Under the pieces are notes generated by a model. It searched no databases, was not told the origin of the DNA, and worked only from the letters and a program-made list of their open reading frames with translations. A program made the position numbers and the translations under genes. From Chthoniobacterales bacterium (GTDB lineage Bacteria; Verrucomicrobiota; Verrucomicrobiia; Chthoniobacterales; JAATET01), in assembly GCA_036569045.1 (NCBI GenBank), contig DATCRI010000022.1:1-34011 (forward strand): a stretch of 34,011 nucleotides of DNA, in the 5' to 3' direction. Positions 8,321 through 17,113 of the stretch are shown here, piece by piece. Within the stretch, counting starts at the first letter, position 1. Each line of letters starts with the position of its first letter.

Positions 8321-10621
8321 TCAGGGCCGGCCGCGCTCGATTCGCCACCAGGCCGGAAGCAGGAGCCGCGTGCGAGTCTCGTGAAAACGACGGTCGATCA
8401 GCAGCGCGGCGCCGCGATCGGTCTCGGTGCGAATGAGCCGGCCAACGGCCTGGAGGACACGCTGCATCCCCGGGAAGCGATAGGCGAAATCGAAACCGGC
8501 GCCGCGCGTGGCCTCGAAATGCGCCTGGAGGGCGTCCCGCTCGAGCGAGAGCCGCGGGAGCCCGATCCCGACAATGCTCACCCCGACGATTCGCTCCCCG
8601 GGAAGATCGATGCCCTCGGAAAAAATCCCCCCCAGCACGGCGAGACCGACGGCATTGCCCGCAGCGGCGAAGTTCGCCAGGAACTCGTCGCGGCTGGCTT
8701 CGTCCATCGAGGCCGCTTGCGTGACCGTCGGCAAGCCGAGGGCGTCCAGGGCTTCGGCAAGGTCGTCGAGATACGAGAACGAGGGCGTGAAGACGAGGTG
8801 GTTGCCGGGATGGGCGCGAACGTGGGCCGCGACATCGCGGGCGACGGCGACGAGCGAGGCGGCGCGGCCCCTGAAGGTCACGTCGTGACCGAGGATCGTA
8901 ACGGGCATCTGCGCGGGGTCGAACGGCGAGGGGAGCGCGAGCGTCGGGTCCTCGTCGCGACCGCCAAGAAGCTGATGGAAGTAATCGGTCGGGGAAAGCG
9001 TCGCCGAGAAAAAGATCGCGGCCCGCAGCTCGTCGAGGGTTTTGCGCAGATGCGCCGATGCATCGACGCAGAAGAGCGTGACCTCCCGTCGGCGGGGATC
9101 GAGCAGCGTGCGAAAATTTTCGTCGAAGAGGTCCGCCGCGCGCAGGAAAGCCAGCATCGCAAACCACGGCTCGAGCCATGTGCTGAGATCGGTGCCGGCA
9201 TCCTGCTCGGCGAGAAAATCCTCGATCGCGCCGACGCCCGCCCGGAGCGTCTCGATGAGCGCTGTGGGATGCCCGGTCGTGGCGATCGCGCCGTCGTGGT
9301 AATCGCGCGCGGGAAGGGCGGACGCCGGGGCGCTGGCGAGAAGGGTGTCGATGGCTCGGGCGGCGGCGACGAAGGCGCTGCGGGCTCGGCGACTGCCGCT
9401 GCCCTTGATCGGGGCGCGGGGTGCCTCGAACATCTCCGCCGCGATCGTCGCGGAATACATTTCGCGGCTGCGATCGACGAGATTGTGCGCCTCGTCCACG
9501 AGGACGACGTGGCTCGTTCCGCCCTCGGCAAAATGCCGCTGCAGCCGGGCGGTGGGATCGAACACGTAGTTGAAATCGCCGATGATCACGTCGGTCCAGT
9601 TCGAAGCGTCGAGGGAGAGTTCGAACGGGCAGACCGTGTGCTTGCGGGCGATTTCCTCGATGCCCGGGCGATCGATCCGGCCCCGCTCGAGCAATTCGCG
9701 AAGCGCGGGCTTGTAGCGGTCGAAATACCCCGCCGCGTAAGGGCAGGTGCGCAGATCGCAGCCCGACGGGGACTCGCTGAAGCAGATCTTGCGTTTCGCG
9801 GTGAGGCTGATGCTGCGCAGTCGGGCGCCGGCCGCCCGCAGGTGATCGAGCGCTTCCTCCGCCGCGTGACGGCCGGGCGTCCTGGCGGTGACGTAGAAAA
9901 TCTTGCCGTCGTGGAGCGGCAGGGCTTTCGCCGCGGGGAAAAGCGTGGCGAGCGTCTTCCCTGTGCCGGTCGGCGCCTCCGCGAACAGCCGGCCGCCGTC
10001 GCGAATGGTGCGATAAACCGCGGCCGAGAAACTGCGCTGGCCGGGACGAAAGCCGCCGAGCGGGAAGGCCATTGCGGTGACGCTTTCGTCGCGGGCCCTG
10101 CGCCAGGCGGCCTGCGGGATCAGCCAGTCGAACCACAGATCGAGCGTCACCGCGAGATACGTGGCGAGCGCATCGGCCGTCTCGACCTCGTGGAACGGCG
10201 TCTCGGCATCGGTGTCGAGATCGAGGTAGGTGAGCTGCGTCTCCACCTGCGGCCAGGCATTCGCCTCGGCGAGCAGTGCGGCGTAGATGCGGAGTTGCGC
10301 ACGGTGGAGGGGATCGGGAACGCCGGGCCATGCTCCCTCGACGGTCTTGATCTCTTCCACGCGAGGCGGCGTTGCCGTCTCCCACACGCCGTCGACGCGG
10401 CCGACGAGGCGCAGCGTTACGCCGGCGCGTTCGAACGTCTTCTCGATCGCGAGCTCGGCGCGGTAGTCGTCCCCGCGGGATCGCTGCACGCGGCGGTGTC
10501 CCTTCGTGCCTTCGACGGCGCGATTCGCAGCGAGGAATTTCCCGTCACCGCCGAGGCCGCCCGTGCGATACGCGAAATCCACGAACTCCCGCACCGGGAT
10601 GCTGAAGGTCGAATCGGCCAT
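8321..10621 (-). CDS. DinG/XPD-type ATP-dependent helicase with N-terminal PD-(D/E)XK nuclease-like domain
   Basis: A 766-residue superfamily 2 helicase of the Rad3/XPD/DinG group. Residues about 1-175 match a Cas4/RecB-type nuclease fold: His41, Asp77 (GRVD), E90-I-K92 and Gln109 (HRAQLRIYA). The helicase has Walker A APTGTGKT (217-223), Cys280, Cys288, Cys293 and Cys331 for a 4Fe-4S cluster, DEAH at 376-379 and a C-terminal QAVGRLIR arginine-finger motif. It should unwind 5'-tailed DNA or R-loop structures in repair. ATG 10621 places FSIPVREFVDF near the N-terminus, typical of the family; a GTG at 10669 is an alternative. It follows tRNA-Gln by 66 bp on the same strand. Confidence 0.9.
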   Translation of the reverse strand: MADSTFSIPVREFVDFAYRTGGLGGDGKFLAANRAVEGTKGHRRVQRSRGDDYRAELAIEKTFERAGVTLRLVGRVDGVWETATPPRVEEIKTVEGAWPGVPDPLHRAQLRIYAALLAEANAWPQVETQLTYLDLDTDAETPFHEVETADALATYLAVTLDLWFDWLIPQAAWRRARDESVTAMAFPLGGFRPGQRSFSAAVYRTIRDGGRLFAEAPTGTGKTLATLFPAAKALPLHDGKIFYVTARTPGRHAAEEALDHLRAAGARLRSISLTAKRKICFSESPSGCDLRTCPYAAGYFDRYKPALRELLERGRIDRPGIEEIARKHTVCPFELSLDASNWTDVIIGDFNYVFDPTARLQRHFAEGGTSHVVLVDEAHNLVDRSREMYSATIAAEMFEAPRAPIKGSGSRRARSAFVAAARAIDTLLASAPASALPARDYHDGAIATTGHPTALIETLRAGVGAIEDFLAEQDAGTDLSTWLEPWFAMLAFLRAADLFDENFRTLLDPRRREVTLFCVDASAHLRKTLDELRAAIFFSATLSPTDYFHQLLGGRDEDPTLALPSPFDPAQMPVTILGHDVTFRGRAASLVAVARDVAAHVRAHPGNHLVFTPSFSYLDDLAEALDALGLPTVTQAASMDEASRDEFLANFAAAGNAVGLAVLGGIFSEGIDLPGERIVGVSIVGIGLPRLSLERDALQAHFEATRGAGFDFAYRFPGMQRVLQAVGRLIRTETDRGAALLIDRRFHETRTRLLLPAWWRIERGRP

Positions 10622-10687
10622 GCGGAAGAAAGGGTCGGAAGAGGCGATTCCCGACGCGGCGAGGGCCACTTCCCGAGCGGGAGAGGT

Positions 10688-10761
10688 TGGCTACCCGACA
10701 TGGATTCGAACCATGAATAAAAGCTCCAAAGGCTTCTGTGTTACCGTTACACCATCGGGTA
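10688..10761 (-). tRNA. tRNA-Gln (anticodon UUG)
   Basis: A complete 74-nt cloverleaf with encoded CCA end (10688-10690). The acceptor stem TACCCGA pairs with TCGGGTA, the D stem GTGT with ACAC, the anticodon stem GAAGC with GCTTT, and the T stem CATGG with CCATG. The T loop is TTCGAAT. The anticodon loop CTTTGGA gives anticodon TTG (10727-10729 on the complementary strand), reading CAA for glutamine. Confidence 0.96.
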
Positions 10762-10824: not shown

Positions 10825-12072
10825 ATGTCCAAAAAACTGCGCAACCGCTTTATCGCGCTCTTCTGCCTGCTCGCCTTCGTCGGAGCGGGCTTTCTCTTTT
10901 ACACGAACTGGGTCGTCCAGCGGCCGTTCGCGATCATCCTTTTCATCGGTGACGGACTCACCACCGGCATGCTCGCACCGGCCCGGATTTACAACGATGG
11001 CGCGCAGAGCCGCCTCGAACTCGAGCGCCTGCCGCACCTCGCGCTTCTGACGACCTACGCGAACGATTTTGCCGTTCCCGATGCCGCCGCCGCCGCCAGC
11101 GCCCTGGCCACCGGCCGCAAGGTGAACAATCGCGTGCTCTCGCTCGACGCGGCGGGCAAGCCGCTCACGTCCATCGTCGATCTCGCGCAGAAAAGCGGGC
11201 GTTCCATTGGCCTCGTCTCGAACGCCTCGCTCACCGATGCCACGCTCGCGGCCTTCTACGCGAAGACCGCCGACCCGCTCGATCATCAGTCCATCGCCGA
11301 CCAGCTCGCCGCCGCGGATTTCGATCTGCTGCTCGGCGGCGGCTCCGACGATTTTCTTCCCGAGTCCAAGGAAGGCCGCCGCACCGATGGCCGCGATGTG
11401 ATGCTCGCGTTTCGCAAGCGTGGCTACGACATCGTGACCAATCGCACCGAGCTGCTCGAGATTCCCGCCTGGCGCGCGCCGCGCGTGTTCGGCGTCTTCC
11501 AGCACGGCAACCTCGAGTTCGCCGACGTTTCCGACCGCGATGGCTCGCAGCCCTCGCTCGCCGACCTCGTGCGGCAGGCGATCTCGCGTCTGCAATACAA
11601 TCCCAAGGGCTACCTTCTGGTCGTCGACGCCGGACTGATCGCCAAGGCCGCCCACAGCAACGAAGGCGAACGCATGATGCGCGAGATCGTCGAGCTCGAT
11701 CGGGCGGTCGGGGCCGCCCTCCAATACGCGGGAGACAAGGCGCTCATCATCGTCACCGGCAAGCAATCCGTCGGCGGCTTCCGCATGAACGGCTACCCCT
11801 TCAAGAACGATCGCGGGATGTCCGTGATCGGCATCAATCCCCAGACGCTTCCGTTCATCACGTGGTCCACCGGCCCCGGCGGCGCCGTGCCGAAAGACGC
11901 CGCCTCGCCCGATCAGCCTGAAAAGCCCGCCGAGCCCTCGGCCGTGCGGACCTCCGCCGCCATCGGCGTCGCCGAGGACGTCATCGCCATCAGCACCGGG
12001 CCGGGATCCGAGAAACTTCAGGGCTTCAAGGACAACACCGACGTCTTCCGGACGATCTCGGACAACCTCTAG
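10825..12072 (+). CDS. Alkaline phosphatase-fold protein, predicted catalytically dead
   Basis: A 415-residue protein with an N-terminal membrane anchor or uncleaved signal (hydrophobic 9-26), so the body should be periplasmic. Alignment by eye to E. coli PhoA is clear: ILFIGDGLT (Asp43 for Asp51), LTDATLAAFYA (Asp138/Thr140 for Asp153/Thr155) and LLLGGGSDDF. The nucleophile motif T-D-S-A reads P-D-A-A (85-88), so Ser102 is Ala87. Zinc ligands are also lost: Asp327 is Ala273, Asp369-His370 are Lys313-Gln314, and the His412 region has no His. Glu322 is Asp268, and only His331 (His277) persists. It is probably a pseudophosphatase that binds a ligand or partner. Its stop overlaps the convergent uricase stop by four bases. 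Confidence 0.82.
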   Translation: MSKKLRNRFIALFCLLAFVGAGFLFYTNWVVQRPFAIILFIGDGLTTGMLAPARIYNDGAQSRLELERLPHLALLTTYANDFAVPDAAAAASALATGRKVNNRVLSLDAAGKPLTSIVDLAQKSGRSIGLVSNASLTDATLAAFYAKTADPLDHQSIADQLAAADFDLLLGGGSDDFLPESKEGRRTDGRDVMLAFRKRGYDIVTNRTELLEIPAWRAPRVFGVFQHGNLEFADVSDRDGSQPSLADLVRQAISRLQYNPKGYLLVVDAGLIAKAAHSNEGERMMREIVELDRAVGAALQYAGDKALIIVTGKQSVGGFRMNGYPFKNDRGMSVIGINPQTLPFITWSTGPGGAVPKDAASPDQPEKPAEPSAVRTSAAIGVAEDVIAISTGPGSEKLQGFKDNTDVFRTISDNL

Positions 12073-12911
12073 CGCCGGACGACGGCCTCGATCTGGCCGT
12101 GCGGCTCGTCCTGCGGTGTGAACGTGATGTTCGGATTCTCCATGCCAAAGGAGGAGAGATTCGCCGTGAAGTAGTGCTTGTTCGGCATCCTGATCGAGAT
12201 CTCGTCGATCTCCGGCGCGGCGGCGAGAGCGGCCTCACCCATCTCGAAAAGGGTGCGCTGGACGGATGGGCTGAAATTTCTGGCGAAGATTTCGAGCAGC
12301 GCGGTGAGCACTCGCGCGTTGGCCGCGGAGAAGTCGCCGGCCTCGGCGCCAAATTTCCAGCTCGTCTCGATGACCGTCGAAAGGATGCGGTCGGTCGCGT
12401 CCTGCAGAGTGGTGAATTCCGTATGGTCGAAGTTCACGAAGGCGGAGTTCGTGGAATTCAGCACGAGCAGGCCGCGGATGCCGGATTCCAGCTCCTGGCT
12501 GACGCGGGAGATCGTGAGGCGGGTGAAGGGCTCACCGAGCGGAGAGGCGTGGAAGGAATGCGGTGCGGGCCGGCCGGCAATCGTCATGCGCTCCCAGCGG
12601 CGTTCGCGGAGTTCGATATGCACGACGTCCACATGAGCGTGGCGGGCGAGAAAATGGCGGCCGAGGACGAGGGCGAAATCCTCGATGCCGGGGCCGAGGT
12701 GCTGGTGGGCGAGAGCGATGATCGTATTTTTGACCGTGTCGGTGGCGACGATCTGCGTGTTGTCTTCGCTGAGGAAGGAGCGCTCGAAAGCGCCCTCGAG
12801 CAGGGCGTCGGCGGAAATTTCCACGACGGATTGCCGGCCGTTTTCCTCGACGCTCTTGCGCAGCACGCGAACCTTCTGCTTGCCGTATCGGTTGGTTCCC
12901 AGGGTAGCCAT
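12069..12911 (-). CDS. Uricase (urate oxidase)
   Basis: Cofactor-free cytosolic urate oxidase of 280 residues, oxidising urate with O2 to 5-hydroxyisourate and H2O2. It shows the tandem T-fold motifs: YGKQKVRVLR (Lys11), VATDTVKNT (Thr57-Asp58, at the same positions as Aspergillus uricase), NSTNSAF, TTLQDATDRILST (Arg175), SPSVQRT (Val217-Gln218) and MPNKHYF near the C-terminus. It starts at ATG 12911; a longer open frame upstream would run antisense through the decarboxylase gene and has no homology. It diverges from the ureide operon across 99 bp, so shared control is likely. H2O2 production implies a catalase elsewhere. Confidence 0.95.
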   Translation of the reverse strand: MATLGTNRYGKQKVRVLRKSVEENGRQSVVEISADALLEGAFERSFLSEDNTQIVATDTVKNTIIALAHQHLGPGIEDFALVLGRHFLARHAHVDVVHIELRERRWERMTIAGRPAPHSFHASPLGEPFTRLTISRVSQELESGIRGLLVLNSTNSAFVNFDHTEFTTLQDATDRILSTVIETSWKFGAEAGDFSAANARVLTALLEIFARNFSPSVQRTLFEMGEAALAAAPEIDEISIRMPNKHYFTANLSSFGMENPNITFTPQDEPHGQIEAVVRR

Positions 12912-12920
12912 GGCGGTTTC

Positions 12921-12950
12921 TTGACAACAAAGCGCGTCACACGCGATCAA
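12921..12950. promoter_or_regulatory. Divergent uricase/ureide operon control region with inverted repeat
   Basis: Rightward, TTGACA (12921-12926) is a perfect -35 with only a weak -10 (GATCAA, 12945-12950) at an 18-nt spacing. Leftward, TTGATC (12945-12950) and TTGTCA (12922-12927) are 17 nt apart, so the two candidate promoters would overlap face to face. An exact inverted repeat, CGCGT-CAC-ACGCG (12933-12945), lies between the boxes of both. A single regulator bound there could control both directions. The boxes are eye-matched and the regulator is unknown. Confidence 0.45.
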
Positions 12951-13010
12951 AAGATTGGCGATGGCGCGGGCGGGCGGTAGAAGTTTCTCCCCGATGAAGG
13001 ATTCAAGCCA

Positions 13011-13517
13011 ATGACGGTGGCGGAGTTGAATGAGGCATCGGAAGACGATTTTTGCGCCGCCCTCGACGGCATCTGGGAGCATTCTCCCTGGATCGTGAAA
13101 GCGGCGGCCGCGGCGCGGCCTTTTGCGGATGTGGAGTCCCTCGACGCGGCCATGTGGGCTGCGGTCGAAGCCGCGGGGCGGGACGACCAGCTGGCGCTCC
13201 TGCGGGCGCATCCGGACCTTGCGGGAAAACTGGTGCTGGCTGGCGGGCTCACCCGCGAATCGGCCAGCGAGCAGGCTTCCGCCGGGCTGGATCGGCTCAC
13301 CAAAAGCGAGTTCAAGGCGTTCAATGCCTGGAACGAACGCTACCGGCAGCGCTTTGGCTTCCCCTTCATCCTGTGCGTGCGTGGGAACAACAAAAATGCC
13401 ATTCGCGCAGCTTTCCGCCAGCGTTTGAGTCAACCGCTCGCCGTGGAATTCGCCACGGCCCTCGCGGAAGTGCGGAAGATCGCTGATCTGCGCCTGCGTG
13501 ATCGGATTACGGCATGA
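13011..13517 (+). CDS. uraD: OHCU decarboxylase (UraD)
   Basis: A 168-residue protein that decarboxylates 2-oxo-4-hydroxy-4-carboxy-5-ureidoimidazoline stereospecifically to (S)-allantoin, the third step after uricase. Family motifs are present: HPDLAGK with catalytic His67, SEQASAGLD with Glu87, FNAWNERYRQRFGFPFILCVRG. The ATG has GAAGGA (12996-13001) 9 nt upstream. It is the first gene of the rightward ureide run and overlaps the HIU hydrolase start as ATGA. Assignment is very secure from motifs and neighbours. Confidence 0.95.
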   Translation: MTVAELNEASEDDFCAALDGIWEHSPWIVKAAAAARPFADVESLDAAMWAAVEAAGRDDQLALLRAHPDLAGKLVLAGGLTRESASEQASAGLDRLTKSEFKAFNAWNERYRQRFGFPFILCVRGNNKNAIRAAFRQRLSQPLAVEFATALAEVRKIADLRLRDRITA

Positions 13518-13843
13518 GTGCAAGGCTGAGCACTCACGTCCTCGATCTCGTGCGCGGCGGTCCGGCACCGGGCATGCGCATCGACCTGGTCGACGACACC
13601 GGTGCGATCGTCAAAACGGCGATGACGAACGCGGATGGCCGCACGGAGGCGCCGATGCTGGGACCGGACGAAATGCGGGAGGGAGTCTTCGAGCTGCGTT
13701 TTCATGTCGCCGCGTATTTCGGGGTCGCCGAGGGCTTTCTCGAGATCGTGCCGGTGCGTTTTCGCATTACGGACGCGGCGCAGTCCTACCATGTCCCGCT
13801 GCTCTGCACGCCGTGGAGTTACAGCACGTATCGCGGAAGTTGA
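13514..13843 (+). CDS. uraH: 5-hydroxyisourate hydrolase (UraH, transthyretin-like)
   Basis: A 109-residue transthyretin-related protein that hydrolyses 5-hydroxyisourate to OHCU, the step between uricase and UraD. The defining signatures are all present: N-terminal LSTHVLD (His8), Arg43, SYHVPLL (His93) and the C-terminal tetrapeptide YRGS (106-109), which distinguishes HIU hydrolase from transthyretin. It has no signal peptide and should be cytosolic. It overlaps uraD by four bases and its TGA shares one base with the next ATG. Confidence 0.97.
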   Translation: MSARLSTHVLDLVRGGPAPGMRIDLVDDTGAIVKTAMTNADGRTEAPMLGPDEMREGVFELRFHVAAYFGVAEGFLEIVPVRFRITDAAQSYHVPLLCTPWSYSTYRGS

Positions 13844-15039
13844 TGAGCGATCCGCGTATCGACGCCTGGCTCGACGAACTGGCCACGATCACCGACGAAC
13901 CGCCCGGGCTCACCCGCACGTTCCTGTCTCCGGCGCTCGAGCGCGCAAAGGACGTCCTCGCCGGCTGGATGACGGCCGCCGGCCTCACGGTTCACGAGGA
14001 TGAGGCGGGGAACCTGATCGGACGCTACGACTGCGGCGATCCTGCCGCGGGCACGCTGGTCTGCGGATCGCACCTCGATAGCGTCCGCAATGCGGGGCGC
14101 TTCGACGGACCGATGGGCGTGGTCGTGGGCCTCCTCGCGGTGGAGCGCGCCGTGGCCGCCGGGCCGCGCGTGCATCTCGAGGTGGCGGCCTTCTCCGACG
14201 AGGAGGGTGTGCGCTTCCAGACGACCTATCTCGGCAGCCGAGCCTACACCGGTCGCCTCGGCGCAATGGAGCGCGGCTGCGCGGATCGGAACGGCATCAC
14301 CGTCGCCGAGGCGATGGCGGCGCACGTTCCGCGTTTTCCGGCTCCGCCGCCCCGCCGGTTGCTCGGTTACGTCGAAGCGCACATCGAGCAGGGGCCGGTG
14401 CTCGAGGCGGAGAATCTCGCGCTTGGGGTGGTCACGGCGATTGCCGGCCAGACGCGCGCGCGGGTCACGCTCACCGGTCGCGCGGGTCACGCGGGCACCA
14501 CGCCGATGACTCTGCGCCGCGATGCGCTCGCCGGGGCGGCGGAATGCGTGCTGCTCATCGAGGAGATGGGGCGAGCCGCCGGCGGACTGGTGGCCACGGT
14601 CGGGCAGTTGGAAATCCCGGCCGCGGCGAGCAACGTGATCCCGGGCGAGGTGTGGTTCACGATCGACATTCGCGACGCGGACGATGCGACGCGGCAGCGC
14701 TTTTCCCGGGAGCTGTTTGCGGAGATCGAGACGCGGATGGCGCGGCGCGACCTCGCGGTGCGCATCGAGATTCCGCTCGAGGCGCCGGCGGCAAGATGTT
14801 CTCCGCGACTCTGCGAGGCGCTCGCGAAGATCGTGGAGCGGCATCAGCCGCGCTGCCCGCGGTTGGTCAGCGGCGCCGGTCACGATGCGGTTGCTCTGGC
14901 CGAGGTGACGGAGGCTGCGATGCTTTTCGTGCGCTGTCGCGGGGGCCTCAGCCATCATCCGGATGAATTCGCCGCGACGGCGGACATCGCGTTGGCCGTG
15001 GACGTGCTTTCCGAGTTCCTGAGAAATTTTTCGGCATGA
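13843..15039 (+). CDS. Allantoate amidohydrolase (M20 family)
   Basis: A 398-residue M20/AllC-type metallo-amidohydrolase predicted to convert allantoate to (S)-ureidoglycine, CO2 and NH3. Candidate metal ligands are His77 and Asp88 (CGSHLDSV, GRFDG), the acidic motif SDEEG (118-122), His180 (AHIEQGP) and His371/372 (LSHHPDEF). The lid-domain motif GHAGTTPM and C-terminal SGAGHDA fit N-carbamoyl amidohydrolases. ATG 13843 follows from the TGATG overlap with uraH; a longer in-frame extension lies inside uraH and is rejected. Allantoate as substrate rests on the operon and on the second M20 gene being the better ureidoglycolate match. Confidence 0.88.
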   Translation: MSDPRIDAWLDELATITDEPPGLTRTFLSPALERAKDVLAGWMTAAGLTVHEDEAGNLIGRYDCGDPAAGTLVCGSHLDSVRNAGRFDGPMGVVVGLLAVERAVAAGPRVHLEVAAFSDEEGVRFQTTYLGSRAYTGRLGAMERGCADRNGITVAEAMAAHVPRFPAPPPRRLLGYVEAHIEQGPVLEAENLALGVVTAIAGQTRARVTLTGRAGHAGTTPMTLRRDALAGAAECVLLIEEMGRAAGGLVATVGQLEIPAAASNVIPGEVWFTIDIRDADDATRQRFSRELFAEIETRMARRDLAVRIEIPLEAPAARCSPRLCEALAKIVERHQPRCPRLVSGAGHDAVALAEVTEAAMLFVRCRGGLSHHPDEFAATADIALAVDVLSEFLRNFSA

Positions 15040-16373
15040 TGGATCTGGTCATTCGCAATGGAAGTGTGCTCACCGACGGAGCTTTCGCTGCGGTCGACGT
15101 GGGCGTTGAGAACGGCGTCATTTGCGAGATCGCGCCCTCGATTTCTTCCGGGGGGCGCGAGGAGATCGACGCCGGCGGCCGGCTGGTGCTGCCAGGCGTC
15201 GTGGATGCCCACGTGCATTTCAACGAGCCGGGCCGCACCGAGTGGGAGGGATTTGCGACCGGCTCACGCTCGCTCGCGGCGGGTGGGGGAACGGCGTTCG
15301 TCGACATGCCGCTCAACGCCGCGCCGCCGACGATCGACCGCGAGTCGTTCGAACTGAAGCGGGCTGCCGGCGAGGCGTCGTCCGTGCTGGATTTCGCGCT
15401 GTGGGGCGGATTGATCCCGGAAAACCTCGATCGACTCGAGGAACTTGCGGCCTGTGGCGTCGTGGGCTTCAAGGCCTTCATGATCGACAGCGGCATTGCG
15501 GATTTTCCGGGTGTGGATGCCGGCGTTCTGCGCGAGGGAATGAAGGTGGCGGCGAAGCTCGGGCTGCCCGTTGCCGTGCATGCCGAGGACTCGGCAATCG
15601 TTGCGCAGATGACCGCGGAAGTGATGGCGGCCGGCCGTCGGGATGTGAGGGCCTTTCTCGATTCGCGCCCGGTGGCCTCGGAGGTCGAGGCGGTGCGCGT
15701 GGCCCTCGATCTCGCGGGCGAGACCGGCTGTGCGCTGCATGTGGTCCATTTGAGTTCGTCACCGGCGGTGGCTCTCGTCGCCGAGGCGCGCGCCGCGGGA
15801 CGCGATGTCACCTGCGAAGTATGCCCGCACCATCTGCTGCTCGACGAGCGGGCGATGTTCCTTCACGGCGCCATTGCGAAGTGCGCGCCGCCTCTGCGCG
15901 ACGGAGCGACGCGCGAGGGCCTGTGGCAGGACGTGCGGGCTGGACGCGTAGATTGCATCGGCTCCGACCATTCGCCCGCGCCACCCGACATGAAACAGGG
16001 CGACGACATGTTCGCCGTCTGGGGCGGCATCATGGGGTGCCAGCACGGGTTTCTTCTGCTGCTCGATCAATGCGGCGCCGATCTGGCGACCGTGTGGGAC
16101 CTCGTTTCGGCCCGGCCGGCGACGCGCTTTGGACTTGGCGACCGAAAAGGACGCATCGCCATCGGTTGTGACGCGGACGTGATTCTTGTCGAGCGGACGG
16201 AGCCGCGGCGGATCACCACCGAAGACCTGCTCTACCGCCACCGCACTTCGCCCTATGTCGGCCTTGAAATTGCCAGCCGCGTGGCGCGATCCTTGCTGCG
16301 AGGAAGGGACGTTTCCCCCGGCGGCCAGAGCCTGCCCCCTGGCGGCGGACGTTTTTTACCTCGAATTCTATGA
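15036..16373 (+). CDS. allB: Allantoinase (AllB)
   Basis: A 445-residue cyclic amidohydrolase that opens allantoin to allantoate. The binuclear metal site is complete: DAHVHF (His59, His61), carboxylated Lys146 in GFKAFM, His182 (VHAEDS), His238 (HVVHLS) and Asp311 (GSDHSPAP). Loop sequence HSPAP and the flanking ureide genes favour allantoinase over dihydropyrimidinase or dihydroorotase. It overlaps the genes on both sides through ATGA; a second ATG immediately follows the first, so the exact start may be 15036 or 15039. The C-terminal 25 residues are Gly/Pro/Arg-rich and probably disordered. Confidence 0.94.
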   Translation: MMDLVIRNGSVLTDGAFAAVDVGVENGVICEIAPSISSGGREEIDAGGRLVLPGVVDAHVHFNEPGRTEWEGFATGSRSLAAGGGTAFVDMPLNAAPPTIDRESFELKRAAGEASSVLDFALWGGLIPENLDRLEELAACGVVGFKAFMIDSGIADFPGVDAGVLREGMKVAAKLGLPVAVHAEDSAIVAQMTAEVMAAGRRDVRAFLDSRPVASEVEAVRVALDLAGETGCALHVVHLSSSPAVALVAEARAAGRDVTCEVCPHHLLLDERAMFLHGAIAKCAPPLRDGATREGLWQDVRAGRVDCIGSDHSPAPPDMKQGDDMFAVWGGIMGCQHGFLLLLDQCGADLATVWDLVSARPATRFGLGDRKGRIAIGCDADVILVERTEPRRITTEDLLYRHRTSPYVGLEIASRVARSLLRGRDVSPGGQSLPPGGGRFLPRIL

Positions 16374-17113
16374 TGGCTTTTGGCGAGACCCGCACCCGGA
16401 TTGGTAGCAGACATGCCCTGATCGCACCCGACGGGCTGGTGCCGAGCACGCTGCCGGGGGTTTCCGGTGCCGTGGCGAACGTGATCATTTCTCCGGCAAT
16501 GGGGGCGAACCTCACCCAGTTGCTGCTGACGTTTTCGCCGGGCGGCCGGGCGGAATTTGCCGAGGCCGGGATCGAGACGTGTCTCTACGTGATGAGCGGA
16601 AAATGCACCGCCAGCGCCGGCGGGACCTCCCAGGTGCTCACGGAAGGCGGCTACGTCTTCGTCCCGGCGGGCACTCCGCTGGTTCTCGCGAAGCCCGGCA
16701 AAGGCACGCGGGTGACCGTTTTTCAAAAGCGCTTTGTTCCGCTCGCGGGCGTGGCCGCGCCGGAGGTCTGCTTTGGAAATGCCGCGGAAGTCGAGGGACT
16801 GCCGTTCCTTGGCGACCCCGATGCCCGATTGAAAACCCTGCTGCCGGATGGGCCGGCCTTCGACATGGCGGTGAATCTTTTCACTTACCAGCCCGGCGCG
16901 CGGTTGCCATTCGTCGAGACGCACATCATGGAGCACGGCCTCATCATGCTCACGGGCGAGGGGGTTTACCGGCTCGAGGATGCCTGGTATCCGGTGGCCG
17001 CCGGCGACGCCATCTGGATGGCGCCCTATTGCCCGCAATGGTTCGTCGCGATGGGCAAATCACCCGCAAGCTACCTCTACTACAAGGACGTCAATCGCTC
17101 CCCGATGCCATGA
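16370..17113 (+). CDS. (S)-ureidoglycine aminohydrolase (bicupin)
   Basis: A 247-residue bicupin that releases ammonia from (S)-ureidoglycine to give (S)-ureidoglycolate, as AllE and plant UGLYAH do. The C-terminal cupin holds the Mn site: Glu183, His185, His189 and Gln223. Its spacing (2, 4 and 34 residues) equals that of Arabidopsis Glu235/His237/His241/Gln275, and Lys239 fits Lys291. The signature ETHIMEHG followed by CPQWF and YYKDVNR is clear. It sits between allantoinase and ureidoglycolate amidohydrolase with ATGA overlaps on both sides. Confidence 0.95.
   Translation: MMAFGETRTRIGSRHALIAPDGLVPSTLPGVSGAVANVIISPAMGANLTQLLLTFSPGGRAEFAEAGIETCLYVMSGKCTASAGGTSQVLTEGGYVFVPAGTPLVLAKPGKGTRVTVFQKRFVPLAGVAAPEVCFGNAAEVEGLPFLGDPDARLKTLLPDGPAFDMAVNLFTYQPGARLPFVETHIMEHGLIMLTGEGVYRLEDAWYPVAAGDAIWMAPYCPQWFVAMGKSPASYLYYKDVNRSPMP

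Follow-up and report, generated by a model that had tools for sequence, protein, structure and literature searches.

The stretch of DNA analysed here, which we refer to as the window, comprises 34,011 nucleotides of a contig from a Chthoniobacterales bacterium (GenBank assembly GCA_036569045.1, contig DATCRI010000022.1). The gene under study, which we call a pseudo-alkaline phosphatase (pseudo-AP) gene, is transcribed divergently from a tRNA-Gln gene and convergently with a uricase gene, with which its stop codon overlaps (Table 1). In a Pfam profile search the protein matched PF00245 (Alk_phosphatase) with an E value of 1.4e-65 and 222 bits against a cut-off of 24.4. The match covers residues 37-412 and profile positions 4-418 of 423, and no other Pfam domain was found in the protein at E<=0.01. 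Among solved structures the best sequence match is human TNAP (E 2e-33). On the uricase side, positions 12069-17113 hold a compact urate degradation cluster with genes for uricase, OHCU decarboxylase, a hydantoinase/carbamoylase-family amidase (allantoate amidohydrolase-like), allantoinase and (S)-ureidoglycine aminohydrolase. On the other side, next to the tRNA, a gene at 8321-10669 on the minus strand encodes an N-terminal PD-(D/E)XK nuclease domain fused to an XPD/DinG-type helicase.

Table 1. Features of the pseudo-AP locus, in window coordinates; residue equivalences are to E. coli PhoA
Feature	Position	Strand	Basis or remark
tRNA-Gln (TTG), divergent from the pseudo-AP gene	10688..10761	-	ARAGORN
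Pseudo-alkaline phosphatase gene	10825..12072	+	415 aa ORF, ATG start, TAG stop; PF00245
Predicted N-terminal cytosolic K-x-R-N tag and single transmembrane helix (aa 1-35)	10825..10929	+	~15 residues before Asp43
Asp86-Ala87 codons, former D101-S102 nucleophile motif (PDAA)	11080..11085	+	MAFFT alignment
Codons 268-277 (DAGLIAKAAH), zinc-1 site destroyed	11626..11655	+	HMMER/TNAP and MAFFT/PhoA alignments
Lys313-Gln314 codons, former zinc-2 ligands D369-H370	11761..11766	+	HMMER/TNAP and MAFFT/PhoA alignments
Gly381 codon, former zinc-1 ligand H412	11965..11967	+	HMMER/TNAP and MAFFT/PhoA alignments
Uricase (factor-independent urate hydroxylase), convergent neighbour	12069..12911	-	TIGR03383, E 7.7e-87

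An AlphaFold2 model of the protein, computed from an alignment of 73 relatives, reached a mean pLDDT of 92.9 and a pTM of 0.91. When the model was compared with solved structures by VIA-align (Foldseek was also run), the top match was human placental alkaline phosphatase (1ew2; Z 51.8, rmsd 1.8 A over 370 residues), and E. coli PhoA structures scored Z of about 46-47. Across true alkaline phosphatases overall, Z ranged from 46 to 52 and rmsd from 1.6 to 2.8 A with about 344-376 residues aligned, so that the resemblance of the predicted structure to alkaline phosphatase is far above chance. An earlier reading of this DNA made without database searches (the sequence-only reading) had assigned the protein a PhoA fold, and both the PF00245 match and the structural superposition bear this out. 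The fold is modelled for the window's protein and is Pfam-based for distant members of the group described below, since a single-sequence fold of one of these (L118) gave a pLDDT of 36.5 and was unusable.

Residues 3-29 form one helix in the AlphaFold2 model with basic residues ahead of it, and this helix is a predicted single membrane anchor. Because basic residues precede the anchor, the phosphatase-like domain should be periplasmic by the positive-inside rule. The placement of the anchor differs from that of PhoA-type enzymes, which have a cleaved signal or a GPI anchor, whereas the predicted transmembrane segment of the pseudo-AP lies about 15 residues before the D51 position (PhoA numbering is used for equivalent positions throughout). 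A hydrophobic N-terminal anchor segment was found in all 86 members of the group that we aligned, and in the middle half of these its end falls 15-16 residues ahead of the D51 position. The intact 415-residue frame of the sequence-only reading is confirmed, and its membrane anchor is likewise predicted from the model and the 86 members. Conservation is 0.573 over the anchor (residues 1-35) compared with 0.544 over the rest of the protein, and the former catalytic positions are the most variable at about 0.28-0.41. The K-x-R-N motif ahead of the anchor, Phe18, Arg126, Tyr263, Gly303, Trp347 and Gly350-Pro351 are invariant or widely conserved. This pattern suggests that the conserved part of the protein has shifted away from the catalytic centre towards the fold, the tether and a few new residues, as would be expected of a binding or scaffold protein.

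To place individual residues we used two routes that agree with one another: HMMER served to align the protein pairwise with human TNAP, and MAFFT to align it with E. coli PhoA. The numbering of the PhoA sequence was checked at 13 known residues, and at the key positions this alignment matches the one with TNAP, whose sequence comes from the PDB. Lost in the window's protein are the nucleophile (S102 is replaced by A87), D327 (A273), D369 (K313), H370 (Q314) and H412 (G381), while D51 (D43), D101 (D86), D153 (D138), T155 (T140), K328 (K274) and H331 (H277) are kept and E322 is conservatively changed to D268. The zinc-1 site D327/H331/H412 accordingly reads A273/H277/G381 and the zinc-2 site D51/D369/H370 reads D43/K313/Q314, both incomplete as ligand sets, and the M3 (Mg) positions D51/T155/E322 read D43/T140/D268. 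Both alignments confirm every residue that the sequence-only reading had named, namely Ala87 in place of the nucleophile Ser, the loss of the Asp327, Asp369, His370 and His412 equivalents and the persistence of those of Asp51, Asp153, Thr155 and His331, and that residue list is therefore correct for this protein. To it we add the loss of the phosphate ligand Arg166, which is now Pro151, and we note that the His331 equivalent is retained here but in only 2 of the 86 aligned members. Compared with PhoA-type alkaline phosphatases (E. coli PhoA, human PLAP and TNAP, shrimp AP), the protein shares the whole fold, the order of the motifs, Asp101, Asp51 and Thr155 but is without the nucleophile, Arg166 and the zinc-1 and zinc-2 sites.

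Orthologues are present in all four genomes of the window's genus, the other three proteins being 87, 80 and 78% identical to it. Of 147 genomes from the order, 127 yielded matches (E <= 1e-10), a few of which are canonical paralogues only (for example in G041, G047 and G072). Searches of the class and phylum were samples with a capped number of candidates scored per genome; these recovered pseudo-APs from eight or more further families of the class outside the order. Beyond the class, the best matches in our sample have the full catalytic set, apart from L182, which deviates at position 101 alone. We aligned 86 distinct members from about 18 families of the class, and a working active site was found in none of them. 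H412 is kept in 0 members, R166 in 1, D327 in 2, H370 in 10, D369 in 12 and S102 in 17 (lost in 69); over the clade as a whole, position 102 is A, S, E, T, Q, G or D. Zinc-1 ligands number zero of three in 82 members, the zinc-2 ligands never occur all together in one member, and two of the six zinc ligands is the most that any member keeps. Judged by sequence, alkaline phosphatase chemistry is shown to have been lost across the clade.

A metal site rebuilt from other residues is a finding that the sequence-only reading had named as one that would count against it. Among the conserved columns of the clade there is neither a set of His or Cys ligands nor a newly formed group of Asp residues; we rejected a rebuilt site on this ground, and the earlier reading survives. 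What the alignment does reveal at the former ligand positions is basic residues. Lys or Arg occupies position 369 in 50 of the 86 members, always paired with Asp at 51, and another lineage has the charges rearranged as Glu51, Asp369 and Arg327. Counting the five zinc-ligand positions other than D51, 75/86 members have Lys or Arg at one of them. The metal pocket thus looks plugged by basic residues, and these residue pairs suggest that an internal salt bridge may do the structural work of the zinc ions. The same observations bear on metal storage or buffering, a role that the sequence-only reading had listed among its candidates. Descent from a three-metal protein and the partial persistence of Mg-type residues would be compatible with such a role, but we consider it highly improbable and disfavour it because the zinc ligands are gone, zinc-1 wholly so in nearly all members, and Lys or Arg has often been placed in the pocket at their position.

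The main rival to a non-enzymatic function is a cryptic enzyme in which the zinc chemistry has been lost and a site formed by D51, T155 and E322 (or Asp) binds Mg2+ and allows a hydrolysis or transfer reaction that is different, weak or specialised. The precedent is YejM, which was once called inactive and for which Mg-dependent phosphatase activity has been reported in one paper (PMC7576196). D101 is kept in 84 of the 86 pseudo-APs, D/E at 322 in 79, D/E at 51 in 73 and T155 in 62. The Mg-type trio of D/E51, S/T155 and D/E322 is complete in 57 members including the window's protein, so a weak Mg2+ site may survive in the majority; Ser or Thr stands at position 102 in 25, and these two features together make weak Mg-dependent activity possible as far as residues can tell. 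However, the trio is missing in a third of members, and the clade is without a conserved nucleophile, Arg166, a second metal site or a conserved His. On this evidence we regard a cryptic enzyme as unlikely.

We next consider how old the loss is. In an unrooted IQ-TREE tree that also included E. coli PhoA, 25 canonical relatives and nine proteins from another divergent group, the pseudo members fell on one side of a branch with support of 100/99, and every one of 200 bootstrap trees had this split. A single change of the pseudo label suffices on the tree, as it does in 100% of bootstrap trees. The simplest history, given that the tree is unrooted, would be a single loss in an ancestor within the class followed by vertical inheritance, which is also favoured by the divergent upstream tRNA-Gln common to families f1, f7, f8 and f13 of the order. 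Among the four species of the window's genus we found zero indels and dN/dS ratios of 0.09-0.23 (NG86), which are approximate because synonymous divergence is high; these values indicate that the window's protein is under purifying selection. The absence of catalytic residues from this protein could by itself reflect a degenerating alkaline phosphatase in the window's lineage. Such recent decay is refuted by the orthologues, the tree and dN/dS, and with a loss shared by the clade, intact frames and a conserved anchor we assign it a negligible chance. A search for orthologues with a normal TDSA motif, by which decay in a single strain might have been recognised, likewise returned no clade member with TDSA plus metal ligands.

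True alkaline phosphatases are dimers, and a pseudo-AP could in principle pair with a catalytic alkaline phosphatase as a mixed-dimer regulator. Canonical paralogues do co-occur with it in some genomes (L005 in G003, L066 in G005). However, the pseudo-AP is the sole PF00245 protein in the window's genome, and exactly one PF00245 match was found in roughly 83 of the 125 PF00245-bearing genomes of the order. With no second such protein in most of the order's genomes, the pseudo-AP does not rely on a catalytic PhoA; partnership was rejected as a general explanation, and a mixed-dimer role is very unlikely. Some genomes have no PF00245 protein at all, namely every genome sampled from families f5 and f2, along with two reduced genomes of 0.9 Mb (G010 and G019 of f8). 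The absence from f5 and the two reduced genomes indicates that the pseudo-AP is not universally required, and the set of genomes without it offers a possible handle on function through trait comparison.

The genes around the pseudo-AP were compared across lineages. No conserved operon surrounds it inside the order, where gene clusters recur by family only, and an order-wide operon was rejected. The sequence-only reading had set the gene beside that for uricase, which is true of this locus; the pairing is confined to the window's genus, where uricase, OHCU decarboxylase and allantoinase lie near the pseudo-AP in two of three relatives (2.6 kb off in one), and it carries no functional support. 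With the adjacency so limited, we rejected a functional link to urate degradation. In families f3, f4 and f9, gpmI lies divergently upstream (TIGR01307, E 2.5e-199; loci L042, L044, L045, L047, L049, L050, L052, L054, L060, L061, L087-L091 and L096). Its product, the 2,3-bisphosphoglycerate-independent phosphoglycerate mutase GpmI, also belongs to the AP superfamily but is a glycolytic enzyme with an inserted iPGM domain and no close sequence relation to the pseudo-AP. Outside the order, the pseudo-AP is directly upstream of rsmA (ksgA) on the same strand at 14 of 20 loci from five families (L186-L192, L194-L197, L199, L203 and L205). In f44, genes for a Ppx/GppA protein and a Ppx/GppA domain-III/HD protein lie upstream; f37 and f30 likewise have Ppx/GppA-like genes there. 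This lineage-varying context, with tRNA-Gln, gpmI or rsmA as neighbour, points to no single pathway.

A full fold without zinc sites, kept in the same disabled form throughout the class, makes it very probable that the protein has a non-enzymatic job in the cell envelope. The retained non-enzymatic role proposed by the sequence-only reading is strongly supported, with the same disabled site in 86 members of one clade and purifying selection on the window's protein. We think that the pseudo-AP is probably an ancient receptor or scaffold pseudoenzyme tethered to the inner membrane, with a clade-wide dead site and a salt-bridged pocket. The clade would have split off from PhoA-type alkaline phosphatases early in the diversification of the verrucomicrobial class, or before it, and been inherited vertically, losing the nucleophile, Arg166 and both zinc sites while keeping the fold and a short conserved predicted transmembrane tether. 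The emptied zinc-2 pocket would usually be neutralised by Lys or Arg369 facing Asp51 (in the other lineage, by Arg327 with Asp369 and Glu51), and a salt bridge in the metal's place could keep the core closed. The domain at the outer face of the inner membrane may then offer a platform for binding, serving as receptor or scaffold to a partner or ligand in the envelope, and the conserved tether may carry placement or signal.

We infer the receptor or scaffold role by excluding catalysis and metal storage and by analogy with YejM (also PbgA or LapC), an inner-membrane protein of the AP superfamily that senses LPS and acts as a LapB anti-adaptor and regulator (PMC9356133). The likeness lies in an inner-membrane-anchored periplasmic domain of the AP superfamily and a regulatory role, and is one of analogy and not of membership. 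YejM belongs to the sulfatase/LtaS branch and has a five-helix transmembrane domain, compared with one predicted helix here, and its LtaS/EptA-like domain keeps Thr302 and metal ligands, whereas the window's protein is a PF00245 member in which neither DUF3413 (PF11893) nor a sulfatase-type domain was found by Pfam at E<=0.01. A bolder proposition, possible if doubtful, is that the pseudo-AP is a class-wide envelope regulator that arose independently of YejM from a different branch of the AP superfamily, with a salt bridge for a zinc centre and with the domain serving as a tethered receptor that informs the cell of a ligand from the envelope or related to phosphate.

Few enzymes have been studied as thoroughly as PhoA. 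A search of full-text literature, whose coverage leaves many subscription papers outside, found no published pseudophosphatase or inactive alkaline phosphatase of this kind, and PhoA-family pseudoenzymes seem not to have been described previously. The clade would add to a well-known family a pseudoenzyme branch that is class-wide and membrane-tethered and whose metal centre is apparently replaced, and would be a clear example from nature of an enzyme that became a structural or receptor protein, with salt bridges apparently taking the place of metal ions. Because the dead gene is the only PF00245 gene in most genomes of the order, metagenomic counts of PF00245 or 'phoA' would put phosphatase potential too high wherever these Verrucomicrobiota abound.

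A second divergent PF00245 clade was also encountered in the class (L072:6974-8239 on the minus strand, L073, L074, L075, L153, L154, L158, L159 and L160). Its members have the nucleophile motif T/S-S-N-G/A-G and carry Asn for H331, Ser for H370 and Asp for H412 but keep Arg166, Asp327, Asp369 and Glu322, and this clade resembles an alkaline phosphatase whose metal site contains no histidine.
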